This document shows positions 2,775 through 18,557 of a DNA stretch of 20,095 nucleotides, piece by piece. Below the pieces are notes generated by a model. The model was not told the origin of the DNA. It saw only the letters and a list, made by a program, of their open reading frames with translations, and searched no databases. Origin of the DNA: a virus; IMG/VR virus record IMGVR_UViG_3300029914_000163, positions 1-20,095 of that record. The stretch is one strand, 5' to 3'. The translations under genes and the position numbers were made by a program. Each line of letters opens with the position of its first letter. Positions within the stretch are counted from its first letter, which is position 1.

Positions 2775-4507
2775 TATTGTTTTCCTTGTTCAGAATTATA
2801 CATTCCTTCGGCAACTGGTCCAGCAAATGGATTTAATGTGCCTCTTATTTTATCAGATAATCCCAGTCTTTTAGGATTAGTTAGAGCGTTTGTTAATGCT
2901 TTTTGTCCAAATTTAGTTTGTGCTATTGCATTTCCAATCGGTCTTATTGCATTGCCGCCTAAGAAACTTAACCCACCAGTAATAGCATTTGGTACCAAAC
3001 TCATACCATGTGTCGCTATCGCTGTTCCGGTTCCGATCAATCCAGTAACTAAATTCCTACCAAATCCTTTAGCTATGTTAGATTTTAATGCGTTTGGACT
3101 GTCTCTTAATATTTTATTCAATGAATCAACTTTCGAGCGTTCAGCATTTGAGAACAAATATTCTCGTTGCTTCTGACTGAGATTGTTATATTTCTTTAAA
3201 AATTCTTTTGGTTCTGCAGAATTATCAAAATAATGACTGCGCAATGTTTTTTTGCCGAAATCTTCATCACCAACCATTTTGCTAAATTGTTGCATTTTTC
3301 CAATATCTTCTCCGCCTTTTGGCACGTAATCCTTTATAAAAGATGCTTTATCAAAGTTAGGATTATTATTCTTTATCAAATTAGAAAATGTTGATGTAGC
3401 ATTCTTTCCTTTTGGAGTTACCACCTGATGGAATGTTTGATTCTTAGCTTGTGTTGCAGAATTAGCGTTATCAAATGTACTTTTTACTGTATCCGACAAA
3501 TTATTATTTTCTAGATTTTTTGCAACGTCACCTTTTGATAATTTTATTGCTCTAGATACAACATCAGTCGGTAATTTAGCACCTCCAATGCTATCTCTAT
3601 AATACTCATTCAATCCTTGATGATGTTTTAATGCACCTTCAAATGAACTTGGCGCAGCATCCAGTAAATTATGAACAAATTGCAATGATGCAATATGCTT
3701 ATCAGAACTCGGATTAACTTTTAATTTATCAGTCAATTCCTGGCGCATTTTCTCAAGGCCATTCATATAGCCTTCATTATTGTAATTAATACCAGGAGTC
3801 GTATCGGCTATGGAAGCATAGCCTTTTGCTACATTCCATTTATTATTTTCATCTGCTGCTGCGGTATCATGAACTGCTTTCGCTTTATCAAATGCATGTT
3901 CGCCAGCTGTTTTCTGGGCAACTTCAGGCAATGCATTTGGCGCAGACATTACAGCGTTTTTATCGCTTACAATATCGCCAACACCTTTTGCAAATGATGG
4001 CGCTGCTAAACTTTTAATATAGTTTTTCCCGGCTTGTAATCCTTTGCCAAGTAATGCTCCACCGCCTTCCAATAATGCATTGCCGCCAAAATTCATTCCT
4101 GCGTTTTCTAATAGGCTATTCTTATTATTTGGGTCCAGTTCAGAAAATCCAGTTCCAGCCGAACCTTGAATAGCTGTTCTTCCAAGGCTATTTAATAATC
4201 CTGCTCCGGCGGAAATCCCCATTAATGGAGCTGTCATCGCAAGCTGAGTTGTTACTGGGTGATGTTTAATATTTTCAACACCACCAAATTGCAAGGCAGA
4301 GCTAGGAGAATACATAGAGGGAAATTCATTTTTGAACTTCTTTGATTCTTCTTCGTAATTTATATCAGGTTTTTTTTTGTTAGATTTAGAGTACCGATTG
4401 TCAAATTCATCTTGAGATGGCAAAGAAAACCCCTGTGATTCACTATTAACATCAGTTGGGAATCTTTTATCAAATTCATCTTGAGATGGTAGAGAAAAAT
4501 CAGCCAT
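2774..4507 (-). CDS. gp16-like ejection (DNA-transfer) protein, 577 aa
   Basis: This gene is in the position of P22 gp16, the third ejection protein (609 aa there, 577 here). The N-terminus carries a tandem peptide: FSLPSQDEFDKR at 4-15 and FSLPSQDEFDNR at 27-38. A Gly/Ala-rich hydrophobic stretch (residues of about 85-110, LAMTAPLMGISAGAGLLNSL) and another near 490-530 (GLIGTGTAIATHGMSLVPNA, then GGLSFLGGNA) fit a protein that inserts into membranes. The middle is Lys/Asn-rich and predicted helical. No enzymatic motif is visible. The start overlaps the upstream stop as TAATG and its own stop overlaps the fibre start in the same way. Assignment rests on order, size and hydrophobic segments rather than recognised sequence. 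Confidence 0.72.
   Translation of the reverse strand: MADFSLPSQDEFDKRFPTDVNSESQGFSLPSQDEFDNRYSKSNKKKPDINYEEESKKFKNEFPSMYSPSSALQFGGVENIKHHPVTTQLAMTAPLMGISAGAGLLNSLGRTAIQGSAGTGFSELDPNNKNSLLENAGMNFGGNALLEGGGALLGKGLQAGKNYIKSLAAPSFAKGVGDIVSDKNAVMSAPNALPEVAQKTAGEHAFDKAKAVHDTAAADENNKWNVAKGYASIADTTPGINYNNEGYMNGLEKMRQELTDKLKVNPSSDKHIASLQFVHNLLDAAPSSFEGALKHHQGLNEYYRDSIGGAKLPTDVVSRAIKLSKGDVAKNLENNNLSDTVKSTFDNANSATQAKNQTFHQVVTPKGKNATSTFSNLIKNNNPNFDKASFIKDYVPKGGEDIGKMQQFSKMVGDEDFGKKTLRSHYFDNSAEPKEFLKKYNNLSQKQREYLFSNAERSKVDSLNKILRDSPNALKSNIAKGFGRNLVTGLIGTGTAIATHGMSLVPNAITGGLSFLGGNAIRPIGNAIAQTKFGQKALTNALTNPKRLGLSDKIRGTLNPFAGPVAEGMYNSEQGKQ
4401..4489 (-). repeat. 20-nt direct repeat inside the gp16-like gene
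   Basis: The 20-base string TCAAATTCATCTTGAGATGG occurs exactly at 4401-4420 and 4470-4489, 69 bases (23 codons) apart and in the same frame. Similarity continues for several bases beyond it. It encodes the duplicated PSQDEFD peptide at the protein N-terminus. Confidence 0.9.
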
Positions 4508-5850
4508 TATTTTTTCCCTTTTGGTAATGCTGCTCTTATCTGCTGTTGTATTTCTGGACTATATGAATCAACTGCATTCCAGAATTCATCATTATTATTT
4601 GATGGGTCAAATTTCTGTGATAAAAACCCTTTCACATCAAATTTATTAGATGGTGCATCTACTTCTTGTCCAGATTTAAATTTAGCTATATTTTCTGGAC
4701 TTAAAAATTCTTTGTATTTATTTGCATTAATTGGTTTTTGTGTTTTCACATCAAAGAACGGATAATCTGTATTATATTGGCTGTACGCTTGCTCAAGTTG
4801 AGGTGCAGTTAATCCAGCTGCTTTAAGTTTATTGTATATTGGCAAGAATTCTTGTTGTCTTTTTGCTACACCTTCGCCATAAGCAATCATTCTTTCCATG
4901 CCTTCTTTCGTCAAAGTAACATCGGGTTTTAATGTCTGCGCAACATCTAAATTAACAGCAGCACCATGTCCACCATTGACATAAGGTGCGATTGCATTTC
5001 TTAATTGCGCCACAGCACCATTTGCTACTTCACGATTTGGATCATCAGTGGCCCAGTGTGGAATTAATCCACCGCGCGGACCTTTCACCCAATTTGGAAC
5101 TTTAGCGATAGCGTCTCTAAGAATCTCGCTATTCTTTTGGATAATAGGCGCATTTCTAGAAAGTGATTGCGCAGTTGTAAACTGATCAGCTGATTGAGCT
5201 ACTTCTGCTTCAGCTTCTTTTTGTTGTTTTGCTCCCTGAGCAGACGCATTATTTTTCCATATATTATATTCACCAGGATTTTGCAATTCCTGCTGGCGCC
5301 CACCGTTAACAAATCCTTTGCTATCTAAATATGGCTGACTGTTTGGGCTGTTCACACTAGATCCTGAACCTCCGGCTTGCTCATTCGGAGACATATCACC
5401 AGATGGCGTTGCGCTAATTGCGTTTCTATTTGGTTGCCCCGTATCTTGTTGAGTTGGTGTATTATTGATTGCATTATTAGGAGTCGATGATTTACCACTT
5501 GAGCCTTGAAATACGCTCTTTAATGCATTTCCAATTGTGCTGAACATGTCTGGAGACTGTTGTTGAGGCTGTGGAAGATTTGGCTGTGACGCAGCAGGGT
5601 TGTTGCTAGCAATTGGACGTATAGCATTTAGATAGGCTTGCTCACCAGCAGCGGAACCATATAGCGCATTAGGTGATATTAAATGCTGAATTTTAGCTTC
5701 AGTTTCGCGTGGATAGAATTGATTTTGTAATTCAGCCTTGCGATTCTCCAATCCAGCTTTGGATATTGCATTGTAATTCGTAAACAACCGACCACCGGGT
5801 CCGGTATCAGACACTACACTAGGTAAAGGAATTGCGCCAAATATTGCCAT
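4507..5850 (-). CDS. gp20-like ejection protein, 447 aa
   Basis: A 447-residue protein occupying the slot of P22 gp20 (471 aa). It starts MAIFGAIPLPSVVSDTGPGG. Residues of about 90-185 are low complexity, rich in Pro, Gln, Asn, Ser and Gly (for example PQPQQQSPDMF). The C-terminal two thirds is charged and probably helical, with KPDVTLTKEGMERMIAYGEG and a final basic PKGKK. It has no long hydrophobic membrane segment and no peptidase or transglycosylase motif I can point to. Spacing is 3 bases from the upstream gene and TAATG overlap with the downstream one, so the three ejection genes form one translational block. Function is inferred from position and composition. Confidence 0.7.
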   Translation of the reverse strand: MAIFGAIPLPSVVSDTGPGGRLFTNYNAISKAGLENRKAELQNQFYPRETEAKIQHLISPNALYGSAAGEQAYLNAIRPIASNNPAASQPNLPQPQQQSPDMFSTIGNALKSVFQGSSGKSSTPNNAINNTPTQQDTGQPNRNAISATPSGDMSPNEQAGGSGSSVNSPNSQPYLDSKGFVNGGRQQELQNPGEYNIWKNNASAQGAKQQKEAEAEVAQSADQFTTAQSLSRNAPIIQKNSEILRDAIAKVPNWVKGPRGGLIPHWATDDPNREVANGAVAQLRNAIAPYVNGGHGAAVNLDVAQTLKPDVTLTKEGMERMIAYGEGVAKRQQEFLPIYNKLKAAGLTAPQLEQAYSQYNTDYPFFDVKTQKPINANKYKEFLSPENIAKFKSGQEVDAPSNKFDVKGFLSQKFDPSNNNDEFWNAVDSYSPEIQQQIRAALPKGKK

Positions 5851-6597: not shown

Positions 6598-7287
6598 TTA
6601 TCGCGCACGCCTTGCGTAAATTCCGCCACACGCTGTGCTTGAGTTAGCTGTTTGTAAATATCCTGTAATATAAACTGTGGTAGTTGCAGCTATGCTAATT
6701 CTTCTCATTGGGACAGTAATTCCAGATCCCGACCCCACTGTTGCAGTAATTGCAGTGTATAATGATGCATCAGGAAAGGTTGCCGAGGTGGTCGATATCC
6801 ATCCGAGAATTATTGACGTGCCTGCGCCAACCGTATCATAAGTTATGTTTCCCCAAACATCCCAATCACCAGCGGTTAACGATATACTTGTTAGGTCGTG
6901 AGCTAAGCCACCCGAAAAAGTAACATGCGAAGCAGAAGCTATGACGCTAGAAATAAACTCCCCAATATAACCACCGGGAGCATTATTATTCGTGCTGGTT
7001 CCTTGCGCCAAAACGCCGCCAGTACCTTTGCCCGTTAATTGCAATTGAATATTTGTGTCAGTTCCACTCGCGGAAAGGAAAGGAGTATTTCCCGTAGTAT
7101 TATTTGAAACCCCTATATAATTTACTGCGCTTACGACATAACTAAATGTGAATGCCAGCGCACCCGTGCTGCTCGCGACGCCGGTGGGAGCTTGCAAAGT
7201 GCCATTTAATCCTGTCATAGAAGTTATATTGGAATTTGCGCCTGCATTCGCAATATTAGTATTTTCTATTTGGTTTTGTGTGGTCAT
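6598..7287 (-). CDS. Tail appendage protein, C1q-like C-terminus, 229 aa
   Basis: A 229-residue fibre-type protein. The N-terminus (MTTQNQIENTN) resembles that of the 195-aa neighbour (MSTNNQINSSQ), suggesting a shared docking peptide. Residues 40-100 are Thr/Gly/Asn-rich strands. The C-terminal 115 residues follow a pattern common at the ends of phage fibres: LTAGDWDVWGNITYD, a strand with GWISTTSATFPD, PMRRISIAATTTVYITGYLQ, and a final GGIYARRAR. In that family the fold is a trimeric TNF/C1q-like jelly roll used for binding, by established analogy. It is the third appendage gene of the cassette, just downstream of an HNH endonuclease gene. The receptor is unknown. Confidence 0.75.
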   Translation of the reverse strand: MTTQNQIENTNIANAGANSNITSMTGLNGTLQAPTGVASSTGALAFTFSYVVSAVNYIGVSNNTTGNTPFLSASGTDTNIQLQLTGKGTGGVLAQGTSTNNNAPGGYIGEFISSVIASASHVTFSGGLAHDLTSISLTAGDWDVWGNITYDTVGAGTSIILGWISTTSATFPDASLYTAITATVGSGSGITVPMRRISIAATTTVYITGYLQTANSSTACGGIYARRAR

Positions 7288-7299
7288 GAATTATTGATC

Positions 7300-7911
7300 C
7301 TAATCTAATATCCATTTTCGTTTATTGGTTTCAGGATCAATGATCCACTTTTTTCCTTTTGTTCGCAGGCTATTTGCCTCTCTAACTTCTTTTCTTTGTG
7401 AAACTTCTTGCAAAATATTTTTTAATTTTTCTCTATGCTCATCACTTACTTTTCTACCTTTTAACGGGCTAACCCCAAATCTTTTATATGTTTTTCCAGA
7501 ATTCCATGATGGCTTGCCTGTTTTTTTTCCTTTATTGGGGCTTTCTTTTCCTTTCATTAATGCACTCATTTGAGCTTTTCGTACTTCGCTGAGCTTTTTC
7601 CCTTTTTTGGAATCTCCCATATTTGCATTCCATTCTGGCGTATGGATAATTAACTTTAATGAAGCACTACATTTTGCCTTATGCTCAGCTGTTAACTTTT
7701 TACCTTTAAAATGAATTTTATTATGACATCCTCTGCATAATGTCAGTCCATTGCTGATTTCGTATCGTAAACTTTCATCTTTATCCCATTCTATAATATG
7801 ATGAGAGCATAAATTTTTATCGCTTTCACAATGCCGACATTTATAGTTGTCTCTTTTTAAAACCTCACTTTTCCAATAACGTCCATCTTTGTTATTTCTT
7901 CCCTTTGTCAT
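7300..7911 (-). CDS. HNH homing endonuclease with NUMOD3 repeats, 203 aa
   Basis: A free-standing HNH endonuclease expected to nick or cut a specific DNA target and spread its own gene. In the M-T-K-G numbering the zinc-binding and catalytic residues are C25xxC28, H37-H38 in CSHHIIEWDK, N54, and C59xxC62-H63 with H67. Downstream are NUMOD3-like DNA-binding segments: GKKLTAEHKAK, GKKLSEVRKAQMS and GRKVSDEHREKLK. The protein ends with GKKWIIDPETNKRKW, nearly the same as the other endonuclease in the window. ATG 7911 is preferred over ATG 7923 because GGAG lies six to eight bases before it, while 7923 sits in a hairpin loop. Lys/Asn content and AT bias are higher than in the neighbouring structural genes, fitting recent insertion. 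Confidence 0.92.
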   Translation of the reverse strand: MTKGRNNKDGRYWKSEVLKRDNYKCRHCESDKNLCSHHIIEWDKDESLRYEISNGLTLCRGCHNKIHFKGKKLTAEHKAKCSASLKLIIHTPEWNANMGDSKKGKKLSEVRKAQMSALMKGKESPNKGKKTGKPSWNSGKTYKRFGVSPLKGRKVSDEHREKLKNILQEVSQRKEVREANSLRTKGKKWIIDPETNKRKWILD

Positions 7912-7936
7912 AATAATCTCCATTAAAGAGATTATT
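7912..7936 (-). promoter_or_regulatory. Hairpin covering the ribosome binding site of the HNH gene
   Basis: The minus strand reads AATAATCTC, loop TTTAATG, GAGATTATT, immediately followed by ATG at 7911. This is a perfect 9-bp stem. The Shine-Dalgarno GGAG lies at the loop/3'-arm junction, so the site is hidden when the RNA folds. No T-run follows on this strand, so it is not a terminator for the operon. In T4, some homing endonuclease and late genes are known to have their ribosome binding site masked in long transcripts; a similar role here is inference. Confidence 0.65.
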
Positions 7937-7967
7937 TTATCATTTAATCAACTGCTATTACAGGTCA

Positions 7968-8555
7968 TTATACTTTAGTAAGACCACTACTCACGACATC
8001 CGACATTCCCCATATCGAATTAGCCACCAAACAAGTTATTAAACAGCTATCACCAGCATTGGTTGACGCCCAGGAACCGGCGCTAGAAGAAGCTTGATTG
8101 CCAAATTGAATAGTCTGACTTGTGTTGGCGGTGGCGACCCAACCTTGGCCTGTTGATAATCCATTTAATCTAATTGCATCACCTATTGCGGCTGTTGCAG
8201 GAAGTGTGACTACACATGGCGCGCTTACGTCAGCAATTATATATCCATGTGAAACGGCAGCAGCGAGCGTCGCTCCAGTTATGGTGCTCCAGGTTAGCGC
8301 ACCGCCGGTTGCATTAATTGTAATAGCGCCCGATGCACTGGTAATACTAACACCCGTGCCTGCGGTTAATGCCGCAGCAGACGGATCGCTAGCAGTAGTA
8401 CCAATTAATAATTGGCCTGCACCCAAGACAATTGGAACCATTGGGCTCGAACCTTCGGCAATCAGAATGCCATGAGCTGTAGGACTTGCAACACCTGTAC
8501 CACCTATTGCAGCGGAAAAGGGCTGGCTACTATTTATTTGATTATTTGTACTCAT
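7968..8555 (-). CDS. Appendage protein, paralogue of the 277-aa protein's C-terminus
   Basis: A 195-residue protein whose whole length after a short N-terminal peptide aligns with residues 96-277 of the 277-aa protein encoded upstream. Shared landmarks are GGTGV.SPTAH, AEGSS, GQLLIGTTASDP against GQLLIGSTGADP, AGTGVSITSASGAITI against AGAGISISNASGAITI, the TW(S/T)TIT step, VTLPAT/VVLPAT, and the IVANTVW/LVANSIW near the end. Such GQLLIG..GADP segments are common in phage fibre proteins. It lacks the 95-residue N-terminal domain of its paralogue and has MSTNNQINSS instead. TAGGAG lies about ten bases before the ATG. It is flanked on both sides by HNH endonuclease genes. It probably adds a second binding or structural unit at the tail tip. 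Confidence 0.75.
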   Translation of the reverse strand: MSTNNQINSSQPFSAAIGGTGVASPTAHGILIAEGSSPMVPIVLGAGQLLIGTTASDPSAAALTAGTGVSITSASGAITINATGGALTWSTITGATLAAAVSHGYIIADVSAPCVVTLPATAAIGDAIRLNGLSTGQGWVATANTSQTIQFGNQASSSAGSWASTNAGDSCLITCLVANSIWGMSDVVSSGLTKV

Positions 8556-8583
8556 TTTATACAGCTCCTAGATAAACACTCAT

Positions 8584-9240
8584 TCAATACCAGATTCTTT
8601 TATTTGTTTCTGGATCTATTTTCCATTTCTTGCCTTTTAATCTAATTTTATTAGCTTCAATATTTTCTGGTGTTCTAGCTTCTAATAATGCTGCTTTATG
8701 AGATTCGCTTAATTTTCTTCCCAGCTTGGCATCCCTTAATTTTTTCTTATGCTCATCAGTAAATTTTATACCTTTTTTAGAAGCGCTTATTTTTCTATTT
8801 CTTTCTATAGTATAAATTTGGTTTTTATGAGCAAAACTCATTTTCTTTTTTGTTTCTTCGCTAGCTTTTTTTCCTAGCTTTGCTTCACGCATTTTTTCTT
8901 TTGTTTCTTCGTTAAAACACCCTTTTTGTCCTTTATTCCAAGCTTTCATTCCTTTTAATTTTTCACTTAATTTTTTCTTTGTTTCCTCGCTTAATGGAAT
9001 TCCTTTAAGCTTACTTTCTTTACCAATATGATGATGCTTATTGTGACAAGAAGTACATAATGTTAATCCATTATTCACTTCATATCGCAAATCTTCGTTC
9101 TTATCCCATTCTATAATATGATGAGCATGAATTTTCCTTCCTACAATTTTACAGCGCTGACATATATTCTTATCTCTTTCAAGAACAGCGTTTCTCCAGT
9201 TATGATAATTGCTATTGTTTGGTCTAGTTGAATGTTTCAT
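8584..9240 (-). CDS. HNH homing endonuclease with NUMOD3 repeats, 218 aa
   Basis: A second free-standing HNH endonuclease, 218 residues. Metal and catalytic residues are C27xxC30, H40-H41 in AHHIIEWDK, N57-N58, and C62xxC65-H66 followed by H69/H70. It then has more NUMOD3-like repeats than its sister gene: GIPLSEETKKKLSEKLKG, a stretch with NEETKEKMREAKLG, ASEETKKKMS, TDEHKKKLRDAKLG and LSESHKA. The C-terminus GKKWKIDPETNKRIW matches the sister protein. A GGAG precedes ATG 9240 by about seven bases. The gene is Lys-rich and AT-rich compared with the surrounding fibre genes. It lies exactly between two paralogous fibre genes and interrupts neither, so it is a free-standing element and not part of a visible intron. 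Confidence 0.92.
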   Translation of the reverse strand: MKHSTRPNNSNYHNWRNAVLERDKNICQRCKIVGRKIHAHHIIEWDKNEDLRYEVNNGLTLCTSCHNKHHHIGKESKLKGIPLSEETKKKLSEKLKGMKAWNKGQKGCFNEETKEKMREAKLGKKASEETKKKMSFAHKNQIYTIERNRKISASKKGIKFTDEHKKKLRDAKLGRKLSESHKAALLEARTPENIEANKIRLKGKKWKIDPETNKRIWY

Positions 9241-9245
9241 ATAAT

Positions 9246-9263
9246 CTCCAATTAAGGAGGTGA
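9246..9263 (-). promoter_or_regulatory. Anti-Shine-Dalgarno-like leader before the second HNH gene
   Basis: The transcript leader contains TCACCTCCTTA (minus strand of 9253-9263), which equals the conserved 3' end of 16S rRNA. Its CTCC can pair with the gene's own GGAG (9246-9249) across a six-base loop. The stem is only 4 bp, so masking of the start site is plausible but weak. This is a parallel to the stronger hairpin ahead of the HNH gene at 7300-7911. Confidence 0.35.
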
Positions 9264-9283
9264 ATTTATCATATTGTTAACCG

Positions 9284-10117
9284 TCAAACTACTTGTGGAT
9301 TGCTATTAATCGAAGTCACAGACCAAACAGTATTAGCCACTATTCCTTTCACAGTAATGTTTGAATATTGAATATCAGAATTTATCGAGCCTGCAATGCT
9401 AGTACTTACCGAACCGAATTCGATGTTTTGTCCGCTGTTACAAACCAATGACCAGCCACCCGCACCTAATCCCATAATTTCAACAAAATCCCCGGCGGAG
9501 AATGTTGCTGGCAAAACTACACTAACCGGTGTCACTGTGCGATTAGTAATATAACCATTATTGGCTGCAGCATTCACCGAAACAGCAGTAATCGTTGTCC
9601 AAGTAACTCCTGATCCAGAAGCTGAAATGGTTATTGCTCCAGATGCATTTGAAATACTAATACCTGCACCAGGTATTAAATTTCCCGCCACTGGATCAGC
9701 CCCAGTAGATCCTATTAATAATTGTCCGTCAGTTAAAGGACCAATAAAGTTAAAATTACTCGAACCCTCTGCCACAGGCAATGTATGAGCAGTTGGACTT
9801 ACAACACCTGTTCCGCCCTGTGTTGGCGTAATCGGGAATGTAAAACTTCCCGCTTCCAATGGGTTCCACTTGTTATTATACCAAACCTCTACTTCTACAT
9901 TAGTTGTGTTAAATATAAATTGACCGTTCTGCGGTAATTTAATGGTGTCGCGTTGAGATGTTGTAACCTGCGGTATGAACATTCCATACTGCGACAAATA
10001 TCCAATTAAATTTTGATAAAATATTTCAAACCATCTTCGAGTTTCATCTGTTAATTTACCAGATTGACTTTTTACAAAGGCATCATAAATTGGTGGTATA
10101 TCGAAGTCATTAGCCAT
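9284..10117 (-). CDS. Tail-tip adaptor/fibre protein, 277 aa
   Basis: The 277-residue protein occupies the place of the P22 tail needle gp26 (233 aa) but does not look like a coiled-coil needle. Residues 1-90 form a distinct domain: FDIPPIYDAFVKSQSGKLTD, then RRWFEIFYQNLIGYLSQYG, then LPQNGQFIFNTTNVEVEVWY followed by NNKW. The last part resembles the 'NGQxIFNTTTN..V...W' strands seen in many phage structural proteins. Residues 96-277 are the fibre module shared with the 195-aa protein. I infer that the N-terminus docks on the gp10-like hub and the C-terminus is exposed. ATG 10117 has GGAG eight bases upstream and starts just after the gp10-like stop. Confidence 0.7.
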   Translation of the reverse strand: MANDFDIPPIYDAFVKSQSGKLTDETRRWFEIFYQNLIGYLSQYGMFIPQVTTSQRDTIKLPQNGQFIFNTTNVEVEVWYNNKWNPLEAGSFTFPITPTQGGTGVVSPTAHTLPVAEGSSNFNFIGPLTDGQLLIGSTGADPVAGNLIPGAGISISNASGAITISASGSGVTWTTITAVSVNAAANNGYITNRTVTPVSVVLPATFSAGDFVEIMGLGAGGWSLVCNSGQNIEFGSVSTSIAGSINSDIQYSNITVKGIVANTVWSVTSINSNPQVV

Positions 10118-10120
10118 TGA

Positions 10121-12013
10121 TTACTCCGGCAATACTTCATAAAACCAAGTGGCACCTAAAATAATAAATGGTGTCTGTGTAAAGAACTCAATCATAGGAA
10201 CAAAAGCTTGACCTCTGACAGTCGTACCTAATTTTCTCCAAACTGTTCTAAATGTACGTTGCCCGACATTACCCATAGGTGCAGGTAGACGATATCCAAA
10301 TGACTGACCTCCATCCTTAGATATGGATAAATAAACTAGTGGCGCTAAAGTTAAATCATAAACAAATGTGGCACCTTCTGTGATTATATCCACTCCGCTT
10401 TCGGTTTCTAATCCAAATCCAGATTCTGTTGTGATATCTACTGGCTGCGGTGTTTGCTGATCTTCAGTAATTTGTCCTTGTAATAAGTCCAATTGGAATC
10501 TATCAATTCGCAAGCGCTGCGATGTAGGTGGCATAATTGGTCGGCCGATTCTGATTCTTCGAATGCTTTCTCCATCATTACTGTTGTAGCTTGGATCAAC
10601 ACTGTAGAGTTCAGGTGTTAGATAATTACCAACATAATTCACCCCGTAGAAATATCCATGCGTTTGCGCAACATGTCTAGACTCGTCCAACATTTCTTCT
10701 TCATGCCAACGTTTATTCTGCTCGTCAGACATTGTCACGCCATATACGTAGGTATGATTCGCTAATGTAAAGTTAAGACGGTAGAATATTAATCCATTTT
10801 CTTTAATTAAAAATCCTCTAGCATCGGCTACGCCAGTCAGAGGGTCAGCAGCATATTGCGCAATCGCATAATCCAATGCTCTGGTAGATACTGGAATTGA
10901 TTCAGTACCAACAACCTCCATTACGGCGCCTTGACCATCCCTGTCTTGAGATAAGAAAAATAACTTATCAAAACCAGTCGCCACGCTACCAATGGCTGCT
11001 GTTCCATACTCCATTAATGCAGTATTATTTCTGCGAAATGGAAGATTTGAACCTAATCCTGAATTTTCCCATACTTCTGTGAAATATTGCGAAAAGAAGA
11101 ATATCCTACGATGCAATGTTCGACATGCAACAAGTGTTCCAGGATGCGATGTAACAGCGCCTTCTTGTAATTGCCCATTATTCATTATTGTTGGCGATGC
11201 GGAAAATCCAGAACCAAATACAATAGGTGTTGGAACTGGTGCAATTGCCATTGCAAGAGTGCTAGCTAGTTGAAATGTAGTAGCACCCGTATTGATAATA
11301 TAATAAGTGTTTCCAGATGTTATTCCGCTTGGTAATGCGCCAGTTCCATTTCCAACAACAACTGCTGCTCCAGTTGGAAACATCGATGTATCAGTAGTGG
11401 TAAAAGTGCTAGTTACAACATTTGCAGCCGAAATATTTGATGTTGTTCCAGACCAAATTAACCCTTCATTAAGACTGCTAAGGTAAAAGTTATTTGTATT
11501 TGCACTGATAACAACAAAGAAACCATCTAGATAGCACACGTCAATCGGACCATTTGGCGCCACTGGAAATGCGGCGTCAGTAATTTTAGTCCACACCGCT
11601 GAAACTACATCGTAAATATAACCATTTGCTCCATCAACAAATATAACCTGAACATGACCATCTGTTCCGCCATTATTTGCATCAATACCAACATATCCAG
11701 TAGTTTGAGCCAATGGTGATGTATTTATTTTAGTAACAGTAAATGCATTATTTATTACATAAACATTTGCGCCAATTACCACAAACATTAACTGGGATGA
11801 TCCTAGATTTGCAACAAACTGTGCTCTATACCCGTTTGCAGCGCCAGGAAATGTTAGATCAGAATTCAATAGACCCGATGTTGATAAAAGTGATTTATCT
11901 TTCTTGCCAAGAGGATCTAGATACTCGAATAGGTTTACAGAGCGCTCACTATCAATAGATGATATGCGCTGATTGTTGTATGAACCGACAATGTCATAAT
12001 TTTCAATAGGCAC
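10121..12013 (-). CDS. gp10-like packaged-DNA stabilisation (tail hub) protein, 630 aa
   Basis: This fits P22 gp10, the hub that plugs the portal after packaging and holds needle and tailspikes. The start is typical of that family: IENYDIVGSYNNQRISSIDS, then ERSVNLFEY. Repeated beta-propeller-like strands follow, and the centre has FFFSQYFTEVWENSG, FRRNNTALMEYGTAA and DKLFFLSQDRDGQGAV. Length is 630 against 472 in P22. Part of the excess is an inserted module at about residues 198-270 (TSMFPTGAAVVVGNGTG, then ITSGNTYYIINTGATTFQLA), similar to one in the gp4-like protein. Near residue 520-545 there is a short Thr/Glu/Ser/Gly repeat (ITTESGFGLETESG). The start codon is GTG, one base after the upstream TAA, with no clear Shine-Dalgarno, so translation is likely coupled. 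Confidence 0.85.
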   Translation of the reverse strand: MPIENYDIVGSYNNQRISSIDSERSVNLFEYLDPLGKKDKSLLSTSGLLNSDLTFPGAANGYRAQFVANLGSSQLMFVVIGANVYVINNAFTVTKINTSPLAQTTGYVGIDANNGGTDGHVQVIFVDGANGYIYDVVSAVWTKITDAAFPVAPNGPIDVCYLDGFFVVISANTNNFYLSSLNEGLIWSGTTSNISAANVVTSTFTTTDTSMFPTGAAVVVGNGTGALPSGITSGNTYYIINTGATTFQLASTLAMAIAPVPTPIVFGSGFSASPTIMNNGQLQEGAVTSHPGTLVACRTLHRRIFFFSQYFTEVWENSGLGSNLPFRRNNTALMEYGTAAIGSVATGFDKLFFLSQDRDGQGAVMEVVGTESIPVSTRALDYAIAQYAADPLTGVADARGFLIKENGLIFYRLNFTLANHTYVYGVTMSDEQNKRWHEEEMLDESRHVAQTHGYFYGVNYVGNYLTPELYSVDPSYNSNDGESIRRIRIGRPIMPPTSQRLRIDRFQLDLLQGQITEDQQTPQPVDITTESGFGLETESGVDIITEGATFVYDLTLAPLVYLSISKDGGQSFGYRLPAPMGNVGQRTFRTVWRKLGTTVRGQAFVPMIEFFTQTPFIILGATWFYEVLPE

Positions 12014-12014
12014 A

Positions 12015-13055
12015 TTAATAACTCAAAATATTTGGCCAGTAGAAAGGCTCTGGTGCTGTTAGCACAACAGATGGTCTAATCGTTAAGTCAGTTTCATTAG
12101 CATTTTTCAGGTTATTGTAGTAATCCTGATATTCATCTTCGTTAGTTTGTGGCCAATTTCCCGAAGGATAGTATGCTAAAAACTTTCTGCATAATGCGTA
12201 TTTTAAGAAACCATAATAATATGGAGGCAATGATCCAAGTGATGTTTCATTGCTAACAGAGTTAAGCATTGACTTAACTTGAATCTGATATGGATATGGT
12301 TGATCTGGAACTGGATAAACAGTAAAGAAACTTTCAGTTGCTTGCTTATCTAGAAATATAAATCCAGGTCTAGCTAATAAGTTTGTCTGCCTTACAATTC
12401 CCCAATAAGTAGCTTTGTTTATTATCCGCAACGGATAAACAATACTAGTCATTTCAGTATTATATTGACCCTGATACGTTGTAATGACATTAACAGGAAC
12501 ACCGTCAGTTAATATCTGTATTGGAATTCCAATTAATGCATTCTGTTCAGTTGCAGCCAACATGATAGTAGTAGCATTTACAAATATAGTGTAGTACGTA
12601 ACACCAGTAATAAATGGCGATGGCACTGTTCCAAATGTCGATAGCACAACGGGCGTACCCGTGACAAATGGCGTAGCAGAACTTACCGTTAAATAATTTG
12701 TCACATTGCTAGCGGTAAAGTTTTCAGAGATTGGATTTGAGTTTTGATTAATACCCGTTCCAGGAACAAGATAATTTGCAAAACTTAAATCAACAATTCT
12801 ATCTGCAACAATGTCAGTTCCTATTGTAATATCAGAAACAGAGTAAGTGTCTTTGCCAACAATGAAATGACTCTTCAATGTTGTTAGGTAGGGAATGTAA
12901 ATACTATCAGCGGAGAATTTAGCTAAAATCTCATTAAGCAATTCCAACCCGGTACTAAGCATAAAGCCGTCAGGTGTTTCACCGACGCCAAGCTCACCAA
13001 GCATGTACAATGATCCAATGATTAGATCATCGGTAGTTGGAATATTCTGTGGCAT
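12015..13055 (-). CDS. gp4-like head-completion / packaged-DNA stabilisation protein, 346 aa
   Basis: This is in the position of P22 gp4, the first portal-closing protein (166 aa). Residues 1-95 fit: TTDDLIIGSLYMLGELGVGE, a helix with LSTGLELLNEILAKFS, and IPYLTTLKSHFIVGKDTYSV. The C-terminus (YGFLKYALCRKFLAYYPSG, then EDEYQDYYNNLKNAN) is the family-typical helical end. The extra length is mainly an inserted beta module at about 113-193, with TPFVTGTPVVLSTFGTVPSP and TGVTYYTIFVNATTIMLAAT. P22 gp4 is also reported to have a peptidoglycan-hydrolysing activity; I see no clear catalytic motif here. AAGGATGA precedes ATG 13055. The long inverted repeat lies directly upstream. Confidence 0.8.
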   Translation of the reverse strand: MPQNIPTTDDLIIGSLYMLGELGVGETPDGFMLSTGLELLNEILAKFSADSIYIPYLTTLKSHFIVGKDTYSVSDITIGTDIVADRIVDLSFANYLVPGTGINQNSNPISENFTASNVTNYLTVSSATPFVTGTPVVLSTFGTVPSPFITGVTYYTIFVNATTIMLAATEQNALIGIPIQILTDGVPVNVITTYQGQYNTEMTSIVYPLRIINKATYWGIVRQTNLLARPGFIFLDKQATESFFTVYPVPDQPYPYQIQVKSMLNSVSNETSLGSLPPYYYGFLKYALCRKFLAYYPSGNWPQTNEDEYQDYYNNLKNANETDLTIRPSVVLTAPEPFYWPNILSY

Positions 13056-18165: not shown

Positions 18166-18306
18166 TTATCGTTGCTGCACTCTATAAAACAACTCTTCTT
18201 GCTTTAACTGCTCACGATGCGAATCACGTTCTTTGGGTTTCTCATTCTCACGCAGAATACCCGGAACTAATTCTTTAATCTGCGACCATTCAACATTATC
18301 AGCCAT
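18166..18306 (-). CDS. Small charged hypothetical protein, 46 aa
   Basis: A 46-residue frame: MADNVEWSQIKELVPGILRE, then NEKPKERDSHREQLKQEELF, ending YRVQQR. It is acidic at the start and strongly charged and helical after that. The ATG at 18306 overlaps the TAA of the 83-aa gene as TAATG, the same coupling used by three other junctions in the window, which is the main evidence. There is no separate Shine-Dalgarno. No family recognised. It lies between terminase and portal, where P22-like phages sometimes carry small accessory genes. Confidence 0.5.
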   Translation of the reverse strand: MADNVEWSQIKELVPGILRENEKPKERDSHREQLKQEELFYRVQQR

Positions 18307-18557
18307 TATGGCAATACCGTTAACTGGCATGATGTCCCTGTGAACACAGGCTTATAGATTTGATGACCATCAGAACCAACAGCAAATACGAAATCAGATG
18401 GCTTTAAATCCATGCCTTGCGATAACAAATAGCTATTCATATAACCAGCAGATGAAATAACAGCTAATGTATCAGTTGATAACAAATGTGCGAAACGTGG
18501 TAATACGCCATCAGATGTTTGACCTGGGAATTGTACTTTGAAATTGGTTATAGCCAT
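18306..18557 (-). CDS. Small hypothetical structural-type protein, 83 aa
   Basis: An 83-residue protein: MAITNFKVQFPGQTSDGVLP, then TDTLAVISSAGYMNSYLLSQ, PSDFVFAVGSDGHQIYKPVF and a final CQLTVLP. From memory, short phage proteins with a 'FPGQ....P....TDTLA.I..AGY' core and a 'DFVFV..' strand are widespread near structural genes; I know of no assigned function. A strong GGAGG lies seven bases before ATG 18557. It follows the terminase by 22 bases. A head-decoration or tail role is possible, but the place between terminase and portal is unusual for such a protein. Confidence 0.75.
   Translation of the reverse strand: MAITNFKVQFPGQTSDGVLPRFAHLLSTDTLAVISSAGYMNSYLLSQGMDLKPSDFVFAVGSDGHQIYKPVFTGTSCQLTVLP

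Follow-up and report, generated by a model that had tools for sequence, protein, structure and literature searches.

How did two endonuclease genes come to lie between three tail-fibre genes of a phage, and did they bring the fibre genes with them? The question is raised by a virus record of 20,095 bases, the whole of which we analysed and call the window. The virus is an uncultured P22-like phage. Its structural genes lie on the minus strand in the order terminase, portal, scaffold, coat, gp4-like, gp10-like, a five-gene block and a gp7-like ejection protein, beyond which come more genes at ejection and tail gene positions. A preliminary description of the sequence had proposed that the block alternates fibre, HNH, fibre, HNH and fibre genes, that it occupies the slot where P22 carries gp26 and gp14, and that the endonucleases helped to build or swap it. 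The alternation is borne out by five minus-strand ORFs, in both coordinates and lengths. As for the slot, synteny (coat, gp4-like, gp10-like, cassette, DNA-ejection protein) agrees with the position in P22, whereas no homologue of gp26 or gp14 was identified. The gp10-like protein matches the PHROG head closure family Hc3 (5e-53), and the DNA-ejection gene also matches a PHROG family (3e-6).

Layout of the five-gene block

Read along the minus strand, the block opens with fibA (9284-10117, 277 aa), in which residues 1 to ~87 are homologous to a short ORF found in this slot in relatives, and residues ~95-277 form a fibre domain paralogous to fibB (44% identity in the C-terminal ~180 aa). HNH1 follows (8584-9240, 218 aa), with matches to Pfam HNH (1.1e-7) and NUMOD3 (8.9e-12), both above cut-offs. 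The next gene, fibB (7968-8555, 195 aa), encodes an array-type fibre protein with the conserved start MSTNNQIN at 8555-8532. HNH2 (7300-7923, 207 aa) again matches Pfam HNH (2.9e-5) and NUMOD3 (7.6e-7) above cut-offs; because of the position of its ribosome-binding site, it starts more probably at 7911 than at 7923. The block closes with fibC (6598-7287, 229 aa), which starts MTTQNQIE and carries a tail-fibre C-terminal domain (PHROG 11393 tail fibre, 7e-13; solved tail fibre PDB 8vbx_R, 4.6e-8).

Two observations concern the surrounding genes. The gp4-like (12015-13055) and gp10-like (10121-12013) genes have an inserted domain in common (gp10 residues ~191-265, gp4 residues ~109-196, roughly 37-44% identity), which is also found in L006 and L008 close to homologues of tail577 and gives the impression of having been passed from one virion gene to another. 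In relatives, gp10 matches spanning ~2.6 kb had suggested an insertion in gp10 itself, a reading that we dropped since the domain is common to both genes. In addition, longer proteins in L105 (8900-10099, 399 aa) and L183 (1082-2395, 437 aa), which lie near fibre arrays of other phages, begin like an 83-aa protein of the window (18306-18557), whose N-terminus they share.

A resident slot protein and a probable additional fibre array

A gp10 scan of viral contigs yielded near-identical records and distant ones at 49-60% gp10 identity. In the distant relatives the slot holds a single ORF of 87-107 aa followed by the gp7-like gene, and this ORF matches only residues 1 to ~87 of fibA. The slot was empty of the block in 10/10 gp10-relatives, and an HNH profile search of the same ten records, several of which are fragments, gave no match. 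Of the lineages sampled, only one therefore has the five-gene block. Where the cassette and the empty slot diverge, one breakpoint falls inside fibA (at about aa 85-95) and the other after fibC, before the ejection gene. The best reading of fibA is that a fibre domain was fused to the resident slot protein, the N-terminal part (residues 1 to ~87) presumably serving as virion anchor. We also considered that distal fibre genes had been translocated into the slot. This was rejected, as a near-identical record of 27.6 kb keeps two distal fibre-like genes (302 and 448 aa), downstream of small appendage genes. The cassette looks additional rather than moved.

The block has a history different from that of the structural genes, as the preliminary description had anticipated. 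Relatives whose coat, gp4 and gp10 are 84%, 76% and 60% identical have none of the fibre block at this locus. Conversely, the closest relatives of the C-terminal part of fibA, of fibB and of fibC are found in arrays of other phages (L021, L022, L195-L198, L105-L110, L178), in which, within the DNA fetched, coat and gp10 kinship is undetectable or limited to distant gp10 kinship. The best fibB relative is 57% identical in amino acids, and among 50,697 phage records we found no isolated-phage relative of fibA, of fibB or of the fibre of another HNH-bearing array, L266.

Structure prediction gives a lead on the function of these proteins. The fibA and fibB models both resemble the tailspike-assembly region of CBA120 TSP4, which anchors and assembles a branched tailspike complex (PMC8825819). 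For fibB (mean pLDDT 84) the best Foldseek match is TSP4-N of CBA120 (E 3.9e-5, rmsd 3.2 over 112 columns, TM 0.42 by query); for fibA the match to CBA120 TSP4 has an E of 7.4e-7 but a TM of 0.29. Weaker matches of the fibB model, CpaA and T4 gp10, coincide with published relatives of the XD1 domain of TSP4-N (PMC8825819). As in the branched receptor-binding complexes of the CBA120 type (PMC8825819), a presumed N-terminal anchor precedes a domain whose predicted fold may be that of TSP4-N, and several appendage genes stand in a row. Unlike them, the proteins are short, without visible depolymerase domain, with ~20% identity or less to TSP4-N and modest TM-scores. The models thus suggest that array proteins may carry assembly or glycan-binding domains, and their products might assemble into one complex.

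HNH genes at the junctions of the array

Both window HNH proteins combine an intact nuclease domain with modular DNA-binding motifs (HNH and NUMOD3). Each is encoded by a separate ORF flanked by intact genes, without intron or intein, and no fibre ORF is interrupted. Homologous sites without the gene exist too, in HNH-free arrays and, for the HNH-bearing array L026, in orthologous HNH-free junctions. The proteins are indeed paralogous (39% identity over 216 residues), with H, N and Cys positions conserved among HNH1, HNH2 and the L026 HNH. G+C content is 0.30-0.36 in windows over the HNH genes versus 0.42-0.49 in neighbouring fibre windows. We conclude that the two genes most likely encode free-standing homing endonucleases, carried as passengers by a fibre array that the phage acquired. 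A group I intron or other structured RNA around them was rejected, Rfam having returned a single sub-threshold match to a eukaryotic snoRNA (SNORD14, window 3383-3444 on the plus strand, 30.6 bits against a cut-off of 64), which we take as chance.

The pairing of an HNH nuclease with a separate DNA-binding part, the position between conserved genes and the patchy occurrence in relatives are all shared with the free-standing endonucleases of T4-type phages, such as the mob and seg genes (PMC2988022). So is a hairpin over the ribosome-binding site, described for mobE and segB and known for several T4-type endonucleases (PMC2988022). In the window, the hairpin AATAATCTC-tttaatg-GAGATTATT (7912-7936, minus strand) holds the ribosome-binding site of HNH2, with a folding energy of -10 kcal/mol and a z of -3.73 (0/200 shuffles as stable), and probably damps HNH2 translation. 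Folding z-scores of the other leaders are -2.11 (L026 HNH), -1.93 (L266 HNH) and -1.25 (HNH1), against +1.30 and -0.64 for fibre leaders, and the hairpin is convincing on its own for HNH2 only. Unlike the T4-type genes, whose neighbours are mainly replication and nucleotide-metabolism genes, those of the window sit among tandem tail-fibre genes, as two paralogues in successive junctions, with a start-motif scar at two of the sites compared; the homing-type class is here read from sequence.

The HNH genes are intruders between fibre genes, since fibre arrays exist without them. A census of tandem arrays of the same fibre types gave 112 distinct HNH-free fibre-fibre junctions in 62 loci, with a median length of 12 bp; in L105-L110, homologous to the window array, genes of these types follow one another at junctions of 9 to 21 bp. 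HNH-occupied junctions number two in the window lineage, one in L026 and one in L266. L026 has the order fibre, HNH (159 aa), fibre, fibre, and in its orthologues L244, L249, L236 and L210 the same two fibre genes are directly adjacent (54-68% identical to L026 for the first fibre, 74-85% for the second). The occupied junction of L266 belongs to another array, and its HNH has retained NUMOD3 along with a KGKxWxIDxETxKRxW tail. In L269, an HNH-like gene (4411-4911) without fibre neighbours combines a similar C-terminal tail (KGKSWKIDQESGKRVW) with a different nuclease part; the tail motif is therefore not confined to fibre arrays. A genome-wide search for this C-terminal motif gave one off-target match, in an archaeal MAG.

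Genes inside arrays start with a conserved M-[AST]-T-N-N-x-[IT]-N (82 distinct examples, the search pattern itself having demanded a loose form of the motif). We built a weight matrix of this start from HNH-free arrays and used it to score the leaders of the HNH genes and 730 control leaders. Upstream of HNH1, overlapping the fibA stop, lies a degenerate fibre-gene start (9252-9287, minus strand), TTGACGGTTAACAATATGATAAATTCACC, whose translation would be (M)TVNNMINSPP followed by a stop; 2/730 control leaders score as high. The L026 HNH leader (730-795) contains MTINN-stop and (M)TTNNAKRLAKW-stop in tandem (3/730), which might point to repeated visits to the site. The score was not significant for HNH2 (181/730 control leaders as good) or for the L266 HNH (456/730). 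The scars suggest that the genes may have inserted at fibre 5′ ends, with an intact start left downstream.

A scar of this kind could also be the remnant of a lost fibre gene in whose place each HNH now stands, and not an insertion footprint. The scars are indeed starts without bodies, L026 has two of them in tandem, and many arrays contain at least four fibre genes. Such a replacement is nevertheless very improbable in our view: in the orthologues of L026 the two flanking fibre genes adjoin each other directly, and no gene lies between them that could have been lost.

We consider it fairly likely instead that the window carries an acquired array of three fibre genes with the HNH genes at its two junctions, placed there by homing at or near fibre 5′ ends. 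Three further fibre genes in tandem would have been acquired by an ancestor between the gp10-like and gp7-like genes, and the first of the three would have been joined to the phage's own small slot protein, serving as virion anchor. Two paralogous free-standing HNH genes would have filled both junctions, either by later invasion or already in the source array. The enzyme would cut a co-infecting HNH-free array in or close to the 5′ end of a fibre gene, a conserved stretch that recurs along the array, and repair would copy the endonuclease gene into the junction, turning the old start into a degenerate scar upstream and leaving an intact start downstream. The cleavage site, the activity and the order of events are what we infer. 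Against this reading stand the two junctions where the scar is absent. No close relative has one or no HNH in the same array either, and the homing event itself is for that reason not seen. Furthermore, free-standing endonucleases of T4 often cut far from their own gene (PMC2988022), and the fibre start need not therefore be the target.

It is also unlikely, in our judgement, that the two nucleases are inert or domesticated and home no more, being passengers or having another role such as the exclusion of competitor phages, with the start-like leader a coincidence or a translational leader. The near-identical records, 99.9-100% identical, are in line with this, as all those spanning the cassette carry both HNH genes unchanged and we found no presence/absence variation among them; two of the four sites are without scar, and some T4 endonucleases exclude markers of rival phages (PMC2988022). 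Active mobility, by contrast, fits the intact HNH motifs and the patchy distribution over equivalent junctions of three array lineages. Rather more speculatively, the HNH lineage might be specialised for the start motif that recurs at gene 5′ ends in tandem fibre arrays, each array offering several targets. It would then duplicate and diverge along an array, cross between unrelated phages sharing little beyond the motif, and leave start-motif scars. We regard this as possible though doubtful; if true, it would predict, in a form open to testing, what a group of phage homing endonucleases targets, namely a conserved fibre-gene start repeated along an array.

Endonucleases and the making of the adsorption cassette

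According to the preliminary description, the two HNH genes, in homing, had taken the fibre modules beside them from phage to phage, and the adsorption cassette had been assembled or swapped in this way. Several facts speak for this: fibB is bracketed by two HNH genes, phage homing endonucleases are known to cause co-conversion of flanking DNA (PMC2988022), homing endonuclease genes have been proposed to mobilise the regions that they flank (PMC10448857), and the fibre block does not share its history with coat and gp10. The breakpoints, predicted to lie near the HNH genes, fall away from them, at the cassette edges given above. The 112 junctions free of HNH genes stand against it as well. Moreover, HNH-free arrays change neighbours anyway: in 28/95 comparisons an anchor gene at least 75% identical had a neighbour whose identity or coverage was below 50%. 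As a count of independent swaps this is an upper estimate, since some cases reflect differing protein lengths or near-duplicate contigs. No high-identity tract common to the cassette and another phage was found, either in the 50,697 phage records or in the comparison with fibre relatives, and the near-identical records show no variation in which conversion tracts would stand out. Homing as the builder of the cassette is thus improbable, and the block can be explained without it.

The bracketing of a virion gene by endonuclease genes recalls the HEG islands of Barth et al. 2023 (PMC10448857). The published islands exceed 10 kb and are highly identical between phages, unlike the 0.6 kb bracketed here, for which no highly identical partner was found, the phage records containing no match to fibA or fibB. 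A search of the open-access literature returned general work on endonucleases near virion genes and not the present arrangement. The kind of system is already known; the novel detail is the start-motif scars together with one HNH paralogue per junction.

Widespread as they are, tandem fibre arrays whose genes begin with the conserved MATNNxIN should be a useful marker for adsorption modules in uncultured phages. They also allow two questions to be kept apart, whether selfish genes live among receptor-binding genes and whether they drive receptor-binding change. The comparison of arrays lends no support here to the second, and favours the view of selfish genes living among receptor-binding genes.
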